From: Synechococcales cyanobacterium M55_K2018_004
GTDB lineage: Bacteria; Cyanobacteriota; Cyanobacteriia; Elainellales; Elainellaceae
Assembly (NCBI GenBank): GCA_015295905.1
Contig: DVEB01000124.1
Location: 1 to 34,850, forward strand
DNA: 34,850 nt
Direction of reading: 5' to 3'
Below the pieces are notes generated by a model. That model was given only the letters and a program-made list of their open reading frames with translations. It did not search any database and was not told the DNA's origin. Made by a program: the position numbers and the translations under genes. Within the stretch, counting starts at the first letter, position 1; the number at the start of each line of letters is the position of its first letter. Positions 108 through 34,850 of the stretch are shown piece by piece.

Positions 108-233
108 TAGCGTCAGTTCTGGTTAAGAGGGTTTTGGGGCACTAGGCCCGGCGCGGTACCCCAAAACTTTTGGTGGTCTGGGGGCGTCGCGCCCAGACCA
201 CCAAAAGTTTCAGCTTATCCTGAACCTGACTAG
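108..233 (-). repeat. Double-hairpin MITE-like element, copy 1
   Basis: The sequence starts TAGCGTCAGTTCTGGTTAAG and ends CAGCTTATCCTGAAC...TAG, the same termini, in inverted orientation, as the copies at 6655 and 29559. Inside are two adjacent inverted repeats: 131-167 (arms GTTTTGGGG / CCCCAAAAC, with a decayed GC-rich apex) and 166-208 (17-bp arms reading ACTTTTGGTGGTCTGGG and its complement). The two hairpins share a couple of bases. The element ends about 12 bp beyond the accD stop codon, so it lies in the accD 3' region and may act as its terminator. Its outer ends are more degenerate than those of copies 2 and 4, suggesting an older insertion. It encodes no protein. Confidence 0.8.
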
Positions 234-6551: not shown

Positions 6552-6654
6552 GCAATTGAGGATCAACCAAGGACGCTGAGCGATTATAGCCGCTTGCGAT
6601 GGTGTGAACGATGACCTCACGACTCAATCTCTGAACCAGTACGTGAATTTAGGA

Positions 6655-6780
6655 TAACGTGAGTTCGGAATAAGCTGAAACCCTTGCTGTTCCGGGCGCG
6701 ACGCGCCCGGAACAGCAAGGGTTTTGGAGCACCGCGCCCGGCGCGGTGCTCCAAAACTCTCTTAACCAGAACTGACGTTA
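6655..6780 (+). repeat. Double-hairpin MITE-like element, copy 2
   Basis: This is a 126-bp element with termini TAACGTGAGTTCGGAATAAG and TTAACCAGAACTGACGTTA, which form an imperfect terminal inverted repeat of about 20 bp. Hairpin 1 is a perfect 23-bp stem (6678-6700 with 6702-6724) with a 1-base spacer. Hairpin 2 is a perfect 17-bp stem (6722-6738 with 6740-6756), also with a 1-base spacer. The hairpins overlap by three bases at 6722-6724. The ends begin and finish with TA, compatible with a TA target duplication. It lies between hisC and the Uma2-type gene, about 40 bp before the latter's start. Confidence 0.9.
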
Positions 6781-6819: not shown

Positions 6820-7707
6820 ATGACACAATCTTCTAGGCCGTCTATTCCTGAAGCTGGCTCGAATTTCCTCTCGGTGGGAGCGGAAGGTAACGTGCTGCAA
6901 ACGTCGCTGCCAACCATGTATGACCTGCCCAGTGAATTTCCGGAGGAGCCGGGTTTGCCTGATGAATATCACGACTTGCAGCCCCAGTTACTCAGCCGCA
7001 CATTGCGCTTGAAGGACTTTGGCCCCAAAGAACGCTTTGCTGCCTCTGACCTGAATGTGTATTATGACGTTAAGCATCCGTTGTGGCACAAACGACCAGA
7101 TTGGTTTTTGGTTGTAGGAGTGCCCCGTCTCTATGAAGGAAAAGACTTGCGCCAGAGTTATGTGGTTTGGCAGGAGCGCAAGTCGCCTAGCATCGTGATT
7201 GAATTTTTGTCGCCCAGCACCGAGCAGGAAGATTTGGGCCGATTTTACCAACCCCAGGATCAGCTGACAGAGAGTAGAGCAATAGAGACTTTGCCCCCCG
7301 CAGACGCCCCTCCCGATAAGGTGACAGTTTACGAGCGGTATTTAGGGGTCGCTTATTATTTGGTGTATAACCGCTATGCGCAAAAATTACGTTACTTCAA
7401 ACTGCATCAGGACCAGTTTGAAGAACAACCTTTGCGGAGCAGTAATCCCCTAGTGTGGTTTGACGACCTAGAGATTGGCCTAGGTATTTGGCAGGGGGAA
7501 TTTGAAGGCGTTGAGGGAGCTTGGTTGCGATGGTGTGATGCGGTGGGGCAATGGCTCTTAACCGACACTGAGCAGGAGCGACAGGCGAAGGAACAAGAGC
7601 GACAGGCGAAGGAACAAGAGCGACAGGCGAAGGAAGCGGCCCAGCAGCGTGCAGCCCGGTTAGAGCAGCGGTTACGGGAACTGGGGATCAATCCTGAAGA
7701 GGTTTAG
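6820..7707 (+). CDS. Uma2-family (DUF820) putative restriction-endonuclease-like protein
   Basis: This 295-residue protein carries the PD-(D/E)XK-like fold of the Uma2/DUF820 family, abundant in cyanobacteria. Visible core segments are VYYDVKHPLWHKRPDWFLVVG (candidate metal-binding Asp in RPDWF), then SPSIVIEFLSPSTEQED (the conserved V-E-x-LSPST motif) and VTVYERYLGVAYYLVYN. The biological role of this family is not settled; nuclease activity is inferred from fold. The C-terminal tail, residues about 250-285, contains three tandem copies of the heptad QERQAKE, predicted to be a charged coiled coil. The gene is intact, begins with MTQSSRPSIPEAG at an ATG, and starts 40 bp after the copy 2 repeat element. 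Confidence 0.85.
   Translation: MTQSSRPSIPEAGSNFLSVGAEGNVLQTSLPTMYDLPSEFPEEPGLPDEYHDLQPQLLSRTLRLKDFGPKERFAASDLNVYYDVKHPLWHKRPDWFLVVGVPRLYEGKDLRQSYVVWQERKSPSIVIEFLSPSTEQEDLGRFYQPQDQLTESRAIETLPPADAPPDKVTVYERYLGVAYYLVYNRYAQKLRYFKLHQDQFEEQPLRSSNPLVWFDDLEIGLGIWQGEFEGVEGAWLRWCDAVGQWLLTDTEQERQAKEQERQAKEQERQAKEAAQQRAARLEQRLRELGINPEEV
7573..7635 (+). repeat. 21-bp coding tandem repeat, 3 copies
   Basis: Three in-frame copies of a 21-base unit, close to CAAGAGCGACAGGCGAAGGAA, encode QERQAKE three times in the C-terminal coiled-coil tail of the Uma2-type protein. Copies 2 and 3 are identical and copy 1 differs by one base, so the expansion is recent and length variation between strains is likely. Confidence 0.9.
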
Positions 7708-19750: not shown

Positions 19751-21174
19751 CTTATATCCGCTCCCTCCCCAAAAACGATGGCACCCTCAGCAACACCACG
19801 ATGTTGCTCTGGAGCTTTGCAACAGCTTTTTTCCCGCGCTTGTTTACCTACTTTGGTGCGCCTGCCATCCTCAACTTTGTTCACTTTGGGATTGTTCCGA
19901 TCGCTGCTGCCATCACACTCTGGACCTCTCGTGTGCGCGATCGCAGGCAAGTCAGAGTTGCACAAGATCTGCTGTGGGCGATGGGAATTCTCTTGGGCGT
20001 GATGATCACCAGCGCCATCATCAACCAGGCCAGCGTTGTAAACGTCTTCCTTTACTTCATGTTCCTGGCAGAACCGATGATGCTCATGGCTGCTCTGATG
20101 ATGGTGGAAATGGTAGGTGAACGGCTGGAAAAATTCAGGAAGTGGGTGGTGGGGTTTGCCTTTTTTAACCTCTTTCTAGTAGTCGTCCAGTCTATCCTGA
20201 TGCCGATTGGCATCTATCCCCGCCGAGGAGGGACATTGCAGGACAACATTGCTGGAGTGTTTGCATCGGGTGGAGGCAGCGCCGGAAACTATGTCTCGGC
20301 AACCGTTTCATTTTATTTTGCCCTCTATTTCTTGCAAACTTTTAAAAACGTTCCCCTTTGGATTAGAGTCTCAACCATTCTGCTTTCGCTTTACCAGCTT
20401 CAGGTCTCCGATTCCAAACAGACCCTGGCAACTTTTCTTGCGGGTGGTGTGCTGCTGGTAATCACAAAGCTCAAACGCCCGGGTAAATTTATTGGCTACT
20501 TGATCGTTGCGGTTATTGTCCTTTATCTGCTCTACTGGGCCTATCAAAACCTGCAAGAGGTTCCCTTTGTTCAGCACATTCGCAACTGGGCGGAACGGGA
20601 TGGGTTGTATGCCCCAGATGGCGAGGGAACCCAGACAAAGCTTGCCGCCTTTCGCATTATTCCGACTCACTACAAAAGTGTCCTGAATGTTTTATTTGGG
20701 TTAGGACCGGGGCATTCCGTCAGTCGGTTGGGGGGCTGGGTGTTACGAGACTACGAATCGCTGCTAATCCCTCTAGGAGCAACAGTTCACCCTGCCTCTG
20801 CTGAAGTATTTCGTGTGGTGTCGGATGGTTGGGTCGCACAGCAGTCCACAATTTTTTTCCCGCTGTTTACCTGGGCGGGCATCTGGGGAGATTTGGGTTG
20901 GCTTGGCCTCGCCGCCTATCTCTATATGGGGTGGATCGTCTGGAGTCGAGTTTGTGTGGATGATTTTGGTCGGTTTGTTGTGCTTTCCACAGTAGTGCTG
21001 GGCTTCATCCTGACGCAGATGGAAGAGCCAGGGCAGATGTTGACGGCAGCCTGTCTACTGGCGCTGCGCTGGCATGAGCACAACAACCAGGCAAGAAAAG
21101 TGCCTTCTGCCCCAAGACCTACAGGCGTTGCTCAGTATGAGCATAACTTTTTAGATAACGTGAATTCAGGATAA
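19747..21174 (+). CDS. O-antigen ligase / Wzy-type polymerase-like membrane protein
   Basis: This 475-residue protein has about ten hydrophobic segments and the large hydrophilic loop typical of the O-antigen ligase superfamily (WaaL, Wzy and relatives), roughly residues 275-370 with VLNVLFGLGPGHSVSRLGGW. These enzymes either polymerise lipid-linked repeat units or transfer the finished glycan to an acceptor, on the outer side of the plasma membrane. Which of the two applies is not decidable here. The start overlaps the preceding stop by 4 bp. The last six codons (DNVNSG) and the stop come from the left terminus of the copy 3 repeat element, so the original C-terminus was probably replaced. 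Confidence 0.82.
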   Translation: MTYIRSLPKNDGTLSNTTMLLWSFATAFFPRLFTYFGAPAILNFVHFGIVPIAAAITLWTSRVRDRRQVRVAQDLLWAMGILLGVMITSAIINQASVVNVFLYFMFLAEPMMLMAALMMVEMVGERLEKFRKWVVGFAFFNLFLVVVQSILMPIGIYPRRGGTLQDNIAGVFASGGGSAGNYVSATVSFYFALYFLQTFKNVPLWIRVSTILLSLYQLQVSDSKQTLATFLAGGVLLVITKLKRPGKFIGYLIVAVIVLYLLYWAYQNLQEVPFVQHIRNWAERDGLYAPDGEGTQTKLAAFRIIPTHYKSVLNVLFGLGPGHSVSRLGGWVLRDYESLLIPLGATVHPASAEVFRVVSDGWVAQQSTIFFPLFTWAGIWGDLGWLGLAAYLYMGWIVWSRVCVDDFGRFVVLSTVVLGFILTQMEEPGQMLTAACLLALRWHEHNNQARKVPSAPRPTGVAQYEHNFLDNVNSG

Positions 21175-21311
21175 GCTGCGATTCTCTCACCCGGAACTGC
21201 GACGAAATCCGTCTGTAAAGTAACAGTTTGTTGTGATGTCAAACGTGCGCACAGCGCACGTTTGACATCACAACAAACCAACTCACTAACTGACAGGGTT
21301 AGCAAACGTTA
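21156..21311 (+). repeat. Double-hairpin MITE-like element, copy 3 (rearranged)
   Basis: The left terminus, TAACGTGAATTCAGGATAAG, matches copies 2 and 4 closely. After about 45 bp of unrelated sequence comes a perfect 25-bp stem (21226-21250 with 21254-21278) and a 3-base ACA loop. Its arm sequence (GTTTGTTGTGATGTCAAACG...) is unlike the other copies. The right terminus appears split: AACTGAC at 21288-21294 and GTTA at 21308-21311 are separated by 13 bases. The conserved second hairpin is missing. The left end lies inside the O-antigen ligase reading frame and supplies its stop codon. Confidence 0.7.
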
Positions 21312-22479: not shown

Positions 22480-22643
22480 CACGTTGCTAATGTTTGCGCG
22501 GCCAAAATCGCCCCCTGCATCCCTGCACATCTCCTGAAAAATTTTCGTCCACCAGTAACTTCTCCCCAAAGGAAGCACTATATAATTGGCACGTTCATTG
22601 TAAAAATAAATTAAACTTCGACCTTCAGGTTGCCCTATTAAAA

Positions 22644-25600
22644 ATGCTGCGAAAATCGTTATCTTTTGCTCCCCTAATGGTGGCGATCGCCCTATCGCCC
22701 ATTCCTGGATCGCTGATCAGCTACTTCGCCGCACCGCCAACGCTGGCCCAAACTGCAACTCCATCGCCCTTTGTGCTCCCGCGGGAAATTGCCAGCGGTA
22801 CCACCCTGCGAGTCGATGGCTCCGCCAGCATGGCGCGTCCCAACGAGGACATCAAGCGGCGGTTTGAACGTCGCTATCCGGGGACGACGGTCACGCTGGC
22901 AACTGATGGGTCAGATCAGGCAATTCAGAAGCTCTTGGCGGGCGAGGTTGATGTCGCAGCAATTGGGCGACCGCTGAGCGAGGCTGAGTTGGCACAAGGG
23001 TTGGTGCAGGTTCCCATTCAGCGAGAAAAGATTGCCATTATTCTAGGGCCAGACAATCCATTTCAAGGCAACCTGACCTTTGACCAGTTTGCCCAGATGT
23101 TTCGCGGTGAAATTACGAATTGGTCAGAGGTCGGAGGGCCGGATCTGCCTGTCCGGTTTATCGATCGTCCCGACGATAGTGATACTCGGCGGGCACTGAG
23201 CACCTACCAGGTATTCAAAGGCCGTCCCTTTGAAACTGGGGCAACGGCTACTCAGGTGGCTGACGACCAAACCGCTACCGTTATTCAGGCTTTGGGGAAC
23301 AGTGGCATCAGCTATGCGATCGCAGACCAGGTCGTGGGGCAGCCGAATGTCCGCGTCCTGGTGATGCATGGCACGTTGCCCGATGATCCCCGCTATCCTT
23401 ACTCACAGCCACGGGTCTACGTCTACCGTGGCACACCGACCCCCGCAGTGCAGGGATTTTTGGCCTTTGCCACGGTTCCTCCTGGGCAAGACCCCGCCGA
23501 AGCAAGTGCGCCAGTGGGTGCTGCCTCTCCGGCCCTACCCAGTCCCACCCCTGCGAGTCCTGTGACGGCCAGCCCAGAAGCCGTTCCTCCCGCAACCGTC
23601 GCCCCCTCTGAGGCGGCTGTTCCCCCTTCTACCAATATCGAAGGAGGAATCCCAGGCTGGCTGCCCATTGTCATTTTGGGTGCGCTGGCAGGGTTAGGCG
23701 CTTTAGTGTTGAGGGGGCGGGGTGGTTCTGCACCTCCAGCCACTTCATCGGCTGCAGCGCCCTCCCCTCCAATCACCCCACCGTCTCCCGCTGCTGTGCC
23801 CCCCATTGCAACCTCTACCTCAACGCCAACAGTGAGCGCCCCAGACGCCACAGTAGCAGAGCCTTCGGGTAGTATTCCCGCTGGCGCAGCAATCGCTGGG
23901 GCGGGTCTGGCCGGGGCAGCAGTGGTGGGGGCGGCGATCACAACACCCAAAAGCCGCATTGTTTTAACCCCCCGCAACTATGCCGATGCCTATGCCTACT
24001 GGGAAGCCCCTGAGGCCCACAAAGCCGAGGTACGGGCACAGGGGGGCAAGGATCTGAAGCTAAGGATTTATGATGTCACTGGCTTAGATCCAGAAGGTAC
24101 GCTCCCTGTTGCTTACCAGGAATACGCGGTGGCTGAAGAGGATGTCGATCGCCATGTGCCCATCATGACGAGCGATCGCGATTACTTAGCCGAACTGGGA
24201 TATACCACCCCCGACCGACAGTGGTTGCCCTTAGCTCGCTCAAACTCAGTGCGGGTTTCGGCAGCTCCTGGAGTGGCGGCGATCGCCCCTGAGCCAGCAT
24301 CTACCTCGCCAGTGGAAGCACCTGCTGCCGCACCTCCCGCTGTGGCCGCTCCCCCGGCGCCACCCATCAGCCCTCTGCCTGCACCAGAGCCGGAAGTGGC
24401 GCCAGTGGCAGAGCCTCCAACTCCACAGCCAGTCGCAGAAGCAGTGGCAGAAACCGTTGACCCCAGCCTTGCGCTTGGAGCCGCTGCTTTGGCAGCCGGG
24501 GCAGGCGCAGTACTAGCCAGTCGGGATGATGAAGACGAGCAGTCGCACGTCGAAGCAGCGAAATTTGACGTTGGTCAAACCGATCTGTCGAGTGAACAGC
24601 TTGCCGATGTGGACGAGGGGCTGCCCGACCTGCCCGATGGTTATGGCGAGAGTCGCATTGTGCTGTTGCCCCGCGACCCTCAGTGGGCTTACACCTATTG
24701 GGACACTCCCAACGAGCATAAGCTAGCTTTGCGCCAGCAGGGGGGTGAGCACTTGGCACTGCGATTGATGGATGTCACGGGGATCGATCTCAACGTCCAA
24801 CACCCGCACAGCATTCAGCAATACGATTGTGATGAACTAGCGCGGGACTGGTATCTACCAATTCCGGTGAGCGATCGCGACTATCTAGTCGAAATTGGCT
24901 ACTTGGCTGCGGATGGTCGCTGGCTGCTGCTAGCCCGTTCCAATACAGTCCGCGTCCCTCCGGTCTTCCCGTCCGACTGGCATGAAGATCTGTTCATGAC
25001 GTTGAGCTGGGATGAAAGCCTGGAAGGTAGGACCTTCATCACACTGGTTCCCCCCGGCCAACGGGTCACGGATACAGGGAATCCCATTTACGACGAAATC
25101 TTTGGCCTGGCAGAATCGGCGGAGTCGCAGCGGGTTGCCGGTTCGTTGTTTGGCTCAATGCAGCACGTCCCTGGCTCCCATGTGCCCGGTTCAGCGCAGC
25201 ATGTGCCCGGTTCAGCGCAACATGTACCTGGTTCAGCGCAGCATGTGCCCGGCTCAGCGCAGCATGTGCCTGGCTCAGTGCAGCACGTGCCTGGTTCGGT
25301 GCAGCACGTGCCTGGTTCGGTGCAGCGTGTGCCCGTGTCAGTGCAGCGTGTGCCCGTGTCAGTGCAGCACGTGCCTGGTTCGGTGCAGCACGTGCCTGGT
25401 TCTGCATTTGGCTCCATGCAGATGGCCTCTGGTGCGGCATTGAGTTCTGTCCCCATTACCAGAGTTCCGCCAATCCCGGCACCTGGAATTACGCCCGTGA
25501 GTTCCTATGTCTTCCCCTCTGGGGTGGGCATGGGCGTCGTCCCGACGTTTTCGGGACTGACCATGTCGGGGGTAGGAGTCTTTGGCTCTATGCCGCCCAT

Positions 25601-25880
25601 CCGCTCACGCAAGTTCTGGCTAGTAGCGGATGCAGAACTGATTGTCTATGGGGCAACGGAACCTGATGCTAAGGTTTACATTGCAGGGCGAGAAATTCCC
25701 CTCAACCCGGATGGCACCTTCCGCTTCCAGATGTCCTTCCAGGATGGGTTGATTGATTACCCAATTCTGGCGATCGCTGCCGATGGAGAGCAGTCTCGCG
25801 CCATCCACATGAAGTTCACCCGCGAGACCCCCAACCGCAACACCAACTCTAAAGAGGACGCCAAAGAAGAGCCGTTCTAA
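22644..25880 (+). CDS. Phosphate-binding-like / double DUF4912 protein with heptapeptide repeats
   Basis: This 1078-residue exported protein carries a signal peptide (MLRKSLSFAPLMVAIALSPI, likely cut after LAQ). Domains in order: a PstS-like periplasmic-binding domain, residues about 46-280 (VDGSASMARPNEDIKRRFE, then EVDVAAIGRPLSEAEL); a Pro/Ala-rich stretch; one membrane segment near 338-358 (LPIVILGALAGLGALVL); DUF4912 domain 1, about 437-541; a Pro/Ala-rich linker and a second Ala-rich stretch near 610-630; DUF4912 domain 2, about 670-774; a tandem array of 12 QHVPGSA-type units, residues 840-921; and a C-terminal beta-rich module from about 986. The ATG at 22644 is chosen because it starts the signal peptide. 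Substrate and role are unknown. It follows the glycan locus, but a functional link is unproven. Confidence 0.85.
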   Translation: MLRKSLSFAPLMVAIALSPIPGSLISYFAAPPTLAQTATPSPFVLPREIASGTTLRVDGSASMARPNEDIKRRFERRYPGTTVTLATDGSDQAIQKLLAGEVDVAAIGRPLSEAELAQGLVQVPIQREKIAIILGPDNPFQGNLTFDQFAQMFRGEITNWSEVGGPDLPVRFIDRPDDSDTRRALSTYQVFKGRPFETGATATQVADDQTATVIQALGNSGISYAIADQVVGQPNVRVLVMHGTLPDDPRYPYSQPRVYVYRGTPTPAVQGFLAFATVPPGQDPAEASAPVGAASPALPSPTPASPVTASPEAVPPATVAPSEAAVPPSTNIEGGIPGWLPIVILGALAGLGALVLRGRGGSAPPATSSAAAPSPPITPPSPAAVPPIATSTSTPTVSAPDATVAEPSGSIPAGAAIAGAGLAGAAVVGAAITTPKSRIVLTPRNYADAYAYWEAPEAHKAEVRAQGGKDLKLRIYDVTGLDPEGTLPVAYQEYAVAEEDVDRHVPIMTSDRDYLAELGYTTPDRQWLPLARSNSVRVSAAPGVAAIAPEPASTSPVEAPAAAPPAVAAPPAPPISPLPAPEPEVAPVAEPPTPQPVAEAVAETVDPSLALGAAALAAGAGAVLASRDDEDEQSHVEAAKFDVGQTDLSSEQLADVDEGLPDLPDGYGESRIVLLPRDPQWAYTYWDTPNEHKLALRQQGGEHLALRLMDVTGIDLNVQHPHSIQQYDCDELARDWYLPIPVSDRDYLVEIGYLAADGRWLLLARSNTVRVPPVFPSDWHEDLFMTLSWDESLEGRTFITLVPPGQRVTDTGNPIYDEIFGLAESAESQRVAGSLFGSMQHVPGSHVPGSAQHVPGSAQHVPGSAQHVPGSAQHVPGSVQHVPGSVQHVPGSVQRVPVSVQRVPVSVQHVPGSVQHVPGSAFGSMQMASGAALSSVPITRVPPIPAPGITPVSSYVFPSGVGMGVVPTFSGLTMSGVGVFGSMPPIRSRKFWLVADAELIVYGATEPDAKVYIAGREIPLNPDGTFRFQMSFQDGLIDYPILAIAADGEQSRAIHMKFTRETPNRNTNSKEDAKEEPF
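25161..25406 (+). repeat. Coding minisatellite, twelve 18-21-bp units
   Basis: Twelve in-frame units encode (Q)HVPGS(A/V). Ten are 7 codons long; the first two are 6. Units read close to CAGCATGTGCCCGGTTCAGCG, and neighbouring units share third-position variants (GTGCCCGGT, then GTGCCTGGT, then two identical RVPVS units), showing spread by duplication and conversion. The array lies between the second DUF4912 domain and the C-terminal beta-rich module. Confidence 0.95.
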
Positions 25881-29558: not shown

Positions 29559-29684
29559 TAACGTGAATTCCGGATACGCTGAACCTCTTGCTTTTTCCTG
29601 CATGTCATGCAGGAAAAAGCAAGAGGTTTGGGGCGCCGCGCACGGCGCGGTGCCCCAAACCTCTCTTAACCAGAACTGACATTA
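29559..29684 (+). repeat. Double-hairpin MITE-like element, copy 4
   Basis: This is a 126-bp copy, the same length as copy 2, with termini TAACGTGAATTCCGGATACG and TTAACCAGAACTGACATTA. Hairpin 1 is a perfect 23-bp stem (29582-29604 with 29606-29628) with a 1-base spacer. Hairpin 2 (29622-29641 with 29645-29664) has one G-T pair. The segment 29622-29628 takes part in both stems, so they cannot both form fully. The element fills the 135-bp gap between two convergent genes: it begins 9 bp after the flavoprotein stop and ends 1 bp before the amidotransferase stop. Confidence 0.92.
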
Positions 29685-34819: not shown

Positions 34820-34850
34820 TAACGTCAGTTCTGGTTAAGCGGGTTTTGGG
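34820..34850 (-). repeat. Double-hairpin MITE-like element, copy 5 (cut by window end)
   Basis: The last 31 bases begin TAACGTCAGTTCTGGTTAAG and continue CGGGTTTTGGG, the same as the terminus and first stem of copy 1 in the same orientation. The rest lies outside the window. It is about 260 bp upstream of acnB, so unlike the other copies it is not seen at a gene's 3' end within this window. Confidence 0.85.

Follow-up and report, generated by a model that had tools for sequence, protein, structure and literature searches.

The best described counterparts of the element reported here are the IS982-derived MITEs, such as MITECca01 of Cardinium (PMC9769881). Like them, it occurs in many copies, lacks a transposase gene and ends in terminal inverted repeats of the IS982 type. 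It differs in its length (124 bp, compared with about 240 bp for MITEs of the MITECca01 type), in having two long palindromes inside it, and in that a parental IS982 is found only in relatives and not in the host genome. The REPINs of the REPIN/RAYT system (PMC3116915) are also small repeated hairpin elements, in which compensatory changes are common and have been interpreted as selection. However, REPINs carry REP tags, where the present element has IS982 ends and target duplications. REPIN/RAYT identity was rejected, the Y1 transposase (PF01797) having no match in the host genome and a match in 5 of 14 control genomes.

The mutational behaviour of palindromes has been described elsewhere. 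In quasipalindrome template-switch mutation in E. coli and yeast (PMC7202029, PMC8604942), arms are perfected from each other and the spacer is reverse-complemented, including the change GAA to TTC, all of which is also found here; what differs is that here the mobile palindromes are replicated hundreds of times in each genome and show a three-way covariation over two overlapping hairpins. In rRNA hairpins (PMC8794818), one template-switch event has likewise been proposed to explain both compensatory changes and loop inversions, but there the combination of the two is extremely rare, and the evidence on maintenance was called circumstantial. In the present family both signatures are common.

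The small dispersed repeats (SDR) of Nostoc, reportedly described by Elhai et al. in 2008, are said to be 21-27 nt long, to show compensatory changes in a predicted hairpin, and not to be IS-ended. On this description they are set apart from the 124-bp MITE, being shorter and without IS ends.

Organisation of the element

The window (the whole stretch of DNA analysed) comprises 34,850 nucleotides of contig DVEB01000124.1 of Synechococcales cyanobacterium M55_K2018_004. The family pattern of the ends matches eight times within it, compared with 0.4 expected. The features are as follows.

109-232, minus strand: second full copy, 124 bp, palindrome 1 paired at 22/23
6640-6658, plus strand: degenerate additional left-end fragment adjoining the copy at 6656, 3 mismatches
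6656-6779, plus strand: 124-bp copy of the IS982-type MITE; its ends fit the family pattern, and it is in the set of 65 gapless aligned copies
6656-6677, plus strand: left end, terminal inverted repeat AACGTGAGTTCGGAATAAGCTG, matching in type the left ends of the IS982 copies L190 and L176
6678-6724, plus strand: palindrome 1 (hp1), 23-bp arms, centre base A at 6701; covariation and centre inversion
6718-6760, plus strand: palindrome 2 (hp2), its two arms flanking the central base, C at 6739
6761-6779, plus strand: right end, reverse complement AACGTCAGTTCTGGTTAAG, matching in type the right ends of IS982 copies
21157-21178, plus strand: left-end fragment alone, 22 nt, no full copy
21226-21278, plus strand: 25-bp palindrome of the unrelated repeat family B, loop ACA
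29560-29683, plus strand: third full copy, 124 bp, with different arms (AACCTCTTGCTTTTTCCTGCATG) and a perfect hp1
34821-34850, minus strand: copy of which the contig end leaves only the right end

The left end sequence of the copy at 6656-6779 is also given as AACGTGAGTTCGGAATAAG. The interior of the element, which has no transposase gene, is filled by the two palindromes. Palindrome hp1 is 47 bp long, with 23-bp arms flanking one base, and it overlaps hp2, whose 5' edge (6718-6724) is the outer part of the hp1 3' arm. The stems at 6678-6700/6702-6724 and 29582-29604/29606-29628 are perfect over 23 bp, as originally predicted, while the stem at 164-186/188-210 pairs at 22 of 23 positions.

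The original prediction listed four copies, at 108, 6655, 21156 and 29559, two of them exactly 126 bp long. Three of these are full copies, the one at 108 being on the minus strand at 109-232, and the length of 126 bp consists of the 124-bp element plus one flanking base on each side. The sequence at 21156 was rejected as a family member: it is a 22-nt left-end fragment beside a hairpin whose perfect 25-bp stem (21226-21250/21254-21278) is real, but belongs to family B. This second family consists of CGGAATCCGCCTATAAAGTAGCAGTT followed by a stem of 24-26 bp, with arms that are variable yet paired, and is found at 21200-21310 of the window and on L104, L054, L109, L117 and others.

All three full copies lie outside the neighbouring genes, whose Pfam matches are to carboxyl transferase, aminotransferase, Uma2, pyridine nucleotide-disulphide oxidoreductase and glutamine amidotransferase. 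A search of the window against Rfam at the gathering threshold gave no match. The window also contains 21-bp tandem repeats (25137-25430 and 7570-7635) within the open reading frames at 22494-25880 and 6820-7707.

Family size and relationship to IS982

All genomes compared are drafts. In the genome of the host (G000, 5.0 Mb), the end pattern has 661 + 641 matches (about 1,300), compared with 5 + 5 for the reversed pattern. A full reading covered 1.21 Mb of the 5.01 Mb and found 167 two-ended elements, 65 of them exactly 124 nt long and gapless. Because draft contigs often end inside the element, as at 34821-34850 of the window, the assembly-based copy number is a minimum. Shortened forms of 83/82, 79/80 and 48 bp recur. 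Repeats rich in GCGATCGC also occur in this genome, and truncated copies often have next to them a further, third hairpin repeat (TAGGTTAGGA...GTGGGAAAC...GTTTCCCAC; L047 15817, L085 3904, L099 3174, L122 4436).

Target duplications of 4-7 bp are present in G000 (for example aatcgt, atgtct, atgtcag and gaatt), and also at the copies in the relatives G015 and G003. G015 carries the same element at 83-85% identity, in about 140 copies as judged from the left-end pattern. G003 has a 124-bp version in which the arms are largely different, and the layout of two hairpins in 124 bp is kept in three genera. It had been predicted that the ends would be conserved and the hairpin different. Within G000 this is overstated, mean identity to the consensus being about 0.87 for the arms and 0.89 for the ends, while between genera it describes the data better: G000 and G003 are identical at 36/41 positions of the ends and at 9/17 of the outer hp1 5' arm.

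The MITE shares its type of ends with the IS982 copies L190 (AACGTGAGTTCGGGATAAG / AACGTCAGTTCGGGTTAAG) and L176. L176 is 969 bp long with an intact 292-aa ORF, and L125 is 968 bp long and encodes a transposase matching NF033520 at 247.5 bits. An intact IS982 copy is present in the relative G021, and copies in G015 exceed the profile cut-off. In G000 itself no parental IS982 was found over the cut-off of 130 bits, the best match to the IS982 profile scoring 26.5 bits. On its sequence, the element is a non-autonomous IS982-type MITE, with putative mobilisation by an IS982 transposase. No description of this 124-bp family was found in the literature searched. Searched against plasmids, the window copy gave no match, and the G015 copy gave only short matches at its ends.

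Nostoc and Lyngbya (L335, L336, L343, L344, L362, L363, L371, L372 and L376) have elements of 124 bp that share these ends and lack long hairpins, and others of 102-103 bp. Several of the 124-bp elements carry target duplications, so that mobility with these ends seems not to need the hairpins. The steps between the lengths of 124, 103 and 83 each amount to about two turns of the helix, which may be a coincidence. The relative G009 has a different, 164-bp IS982-ended MITE with several hairpins (e.g. L142 3505-3669 and L144 2714-2877), the first of which has the centre AA or TT.

Covariation of the palindrome arms

Covariation was analysed in the 65 gapless 124-nt copies from G000, for which no choice of alignment is involved. 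The ten column pairs with the highest mutual information, out of 7,626, are all partners in hp1 or hp2. In hp1 there are 108 compensated double cells, whereas exchanging entire 3' arms at random between copies gives 24 (maximum 36); an independent count on a MAFFT alignment of the 65 copies gave 146 double-changed paired cells, with 39 expected from shuffling. Of 500 shuffles, none reached the observed value for any one of the five measures, and the signal is abolished when partners are displaced by a single column. Partner sites have a mean r2 of 0.21 (up to 0.83), compared with 0.019 for non-partners within 10 nt and 0.015 for those farther apart. The original prediction that arms differ between copies and yet stay complementary is thereby confirmed, and the condition that it set for refutation, unpaired or identical arms in most genome copies, did not hold: arms vary and are paired well above chance.

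Only one other pair of columns is strongly linked, namely 24 and 100 (0-based), with an r2 of 0.29. These are linked because both are outer copies of the segment shared by hp1 and hp2 (24/66/100), where 14 cells form consistent triples. A change therefore passes into all three strands, even though the middle one can pair with either outer partner but not with both at once. Sites 31 and 33, only two bases apart, are in linkage equilibrium (r2 0.03), whereas partners 24-28 bases apart have r2 of 0.75-0.83. This suggests either exchange between copies or recurrent change.

Single changes that leave G.U in the stems (138 cells) and those that leave A.C (125 cells) are about equal in number, so that no RNA strand is favoured. 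An RNA-level fold was rejected on this lack of a G.U excess, together with the Rfam result. Unpaired changes rise with decay of the ends, which was used as a measure of age (rho 0.40, p 1.5e-5), while compensated doubles do not rise in older copies (rho 0.12, p 0.22). Pairing thus belongs to intact or active copies. Stem cells are not independent events, and some pairs are counted in both hp1 and hp2, whose sequence is shared. The claim made here therefore rests on young relatives and on the palindrome centres.

Compensated pairs in young copies and inversion of centres

Of 43 copies in G015, 12 are identical, and most of the rest are a few letters away. In each of three haplotypes a single compensated pair (31/59, 37/53 or 40/50) is the whole difference from the common sequence. 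In total there are 9 compensated pairs in G015 (two within one triple), compared with 0.107 expected from independent mutation; the maximum in 20,000 simulations was 3. G003 has 5, compared with 0.114 expected. The sequences of these near-identical copies show arms homogenised in one step.

The centres behave in a related way. Among intact stems in G000, the hp1 centre is T in 26, A in 26, G in 1 and C in 2, and the hp2 centre is C in 25, G in 15, T in 2 and A in 1. Seven G015 copies match the 12 identical ones except at the hp2 centre, where T is replaced by A, and all four combinations of centres are present in that genome. The hp2 loop of G003 is GAA in 28 copies and TTC in 10, and in copy L159 the change from GAA to TTC is the sole difference from the consensus. 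An older subfamily in the same genome has the hp2 loop AAC in 2 and GTT in 3, and hp1 AAA in 2 and TTT in 2. The different IS982-ended element of G009 has the centre AA in 72 and TT in 13, with neither AT nor TA (a hand tally from a listing). Even the unrelated family B has loops TGC/GCA, TGT/ACA and, on identical arms, TAC/GTA. Compared between copies in this way, the loop letters show that hairpin centres are inverted to their reverse complement. Inversion of the centres by the assembly is unlikely in drafts, k-mers longer than about 26 nt fixing the centre by its flank.

Origin of the paired arms

These observations indicate that selection alone does not keep the arms paired, and that DNA copying rewrites one arm from the other. 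Probably, polymerase template switching at intact palindromes, likely during host replication, rewrites the arms and inverts the centres. A DNA polymerase would meet an extruded hairpin and switch template. By folding back onto its own nascent strand it would copy a mutation of one arm into the other, and by jumping to the opposite strand and back it would invert the centre. Template switching is known to yield arm homogenisation and spacer inversion, including GAA to TTC in yeast strains, and spacer inversion requires a between-strand switch (PMC8604942). Mutations of an intact palindrome would often either disappear or be carried over into the partner arm, which lets the arms drift yet stay complementary. 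Old copies lose pairing, presumably because the hairpin forms too poorly. The two palindromes would compete for their shared segment, and slippage between short direct repeats across the hairpins would yield the deletion forms of 83, 79 and 48 bp. Since the unrelated family B inverts too, host DNA synthesis is the most likely agent, rather than the transposase.

Because compensated doubles do not rise in older copies, switching is no steady process across all resident copies, and a steady-rate correction in all of them was not supported. It would operate either only while a palindrome is intact or only during the phase of transposition. No insertion shared by two genomes was found: G021, of the same genus as G003, had no match to the G003 element; G015 is the sole genome of its genus among those compared.

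Template switching within a copy leaves the near-zero linkage between non-partner sites unexplained. That feature would follow if the rewriting and inversion occurred in the element's own replicative transposition, with switching between copies: the family would then be continuously shuffled, and the palindromes would be by-products of copying. We regard this as unlikely. The same low linkage (mean r2 0.015-0.019) suggests inter-copy exchange, each stem pair being its own locus, and could be taken to favour co-conversion of the arms, whether through mismatch repair acting on the stems of extruded cruciforms or hairpins, or through ectopic gene conversion between dispersed copies. However, mismatch repair alone is unable to invert the centre of a paired hairpin, and gene conversion should bring flanking differences, of which the one-pair haplotypes of G015 show none; this account appears quite improbable.

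Selection on the fold would suppose that transposition or a host function depends on a hairpin, formed by RNA or by single-stranded DNA, and that compensatory mutations are fixed singly. It fits with stems that are paired in active lineages and lost with age, with the layout retained in three genera, and with the way in which the common compensatory changes of REPIN hairpins have been read (PMC3116915). However, selection keeps or removes variants and cannot make doubles so fast (9 and 5, compared with 0.1 expected in each case), nor does it predict inversion of the centre. The near-equality of G.U and A.C argues against an RNA fold, although it weighs little alone, as most single changes may be decay after insertion. 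The Nostoc elements of 124 bp with the same ends carry target duplications without long hairpins. Given these elements and the decay of pairing in old copies, selection on the fold is not needed, and we consider it very improbable. The original prediction had offered selection on the fold and rewriting of one arm from the other as alternatives, and the one-step pairs and inverted centres favour the second. Chance or subfamily structure, for which it might be said that stem pairs 31/59 and 33/57 are common to many copies and that cells are not independent, has next to no probability, in view of the shuffles and the top-ranking pairs given above and of the independent events in G015 and G003.

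The mechanism of template switching is already known; what is new, as far as could be found in the literature searched, is to see it, in unusually clear form, across mobile palindromes replicated by the hundred. When both sides of a stem change in a compensatory way, this is routinely taken as proof of structural selection, whereas here the covariation appears to be largely mutational, the inverted centre being a built-in tell-tale of that origin. This calls for caution in covariation tests on repeated palindromes such as REPINs, SDRs and MITE-derived RNAs. The family is also a natural recorder from which the rate of template switching could be measured, a process for which the evidence in RNA stems was earlier called circumstantial (PMC8794818).
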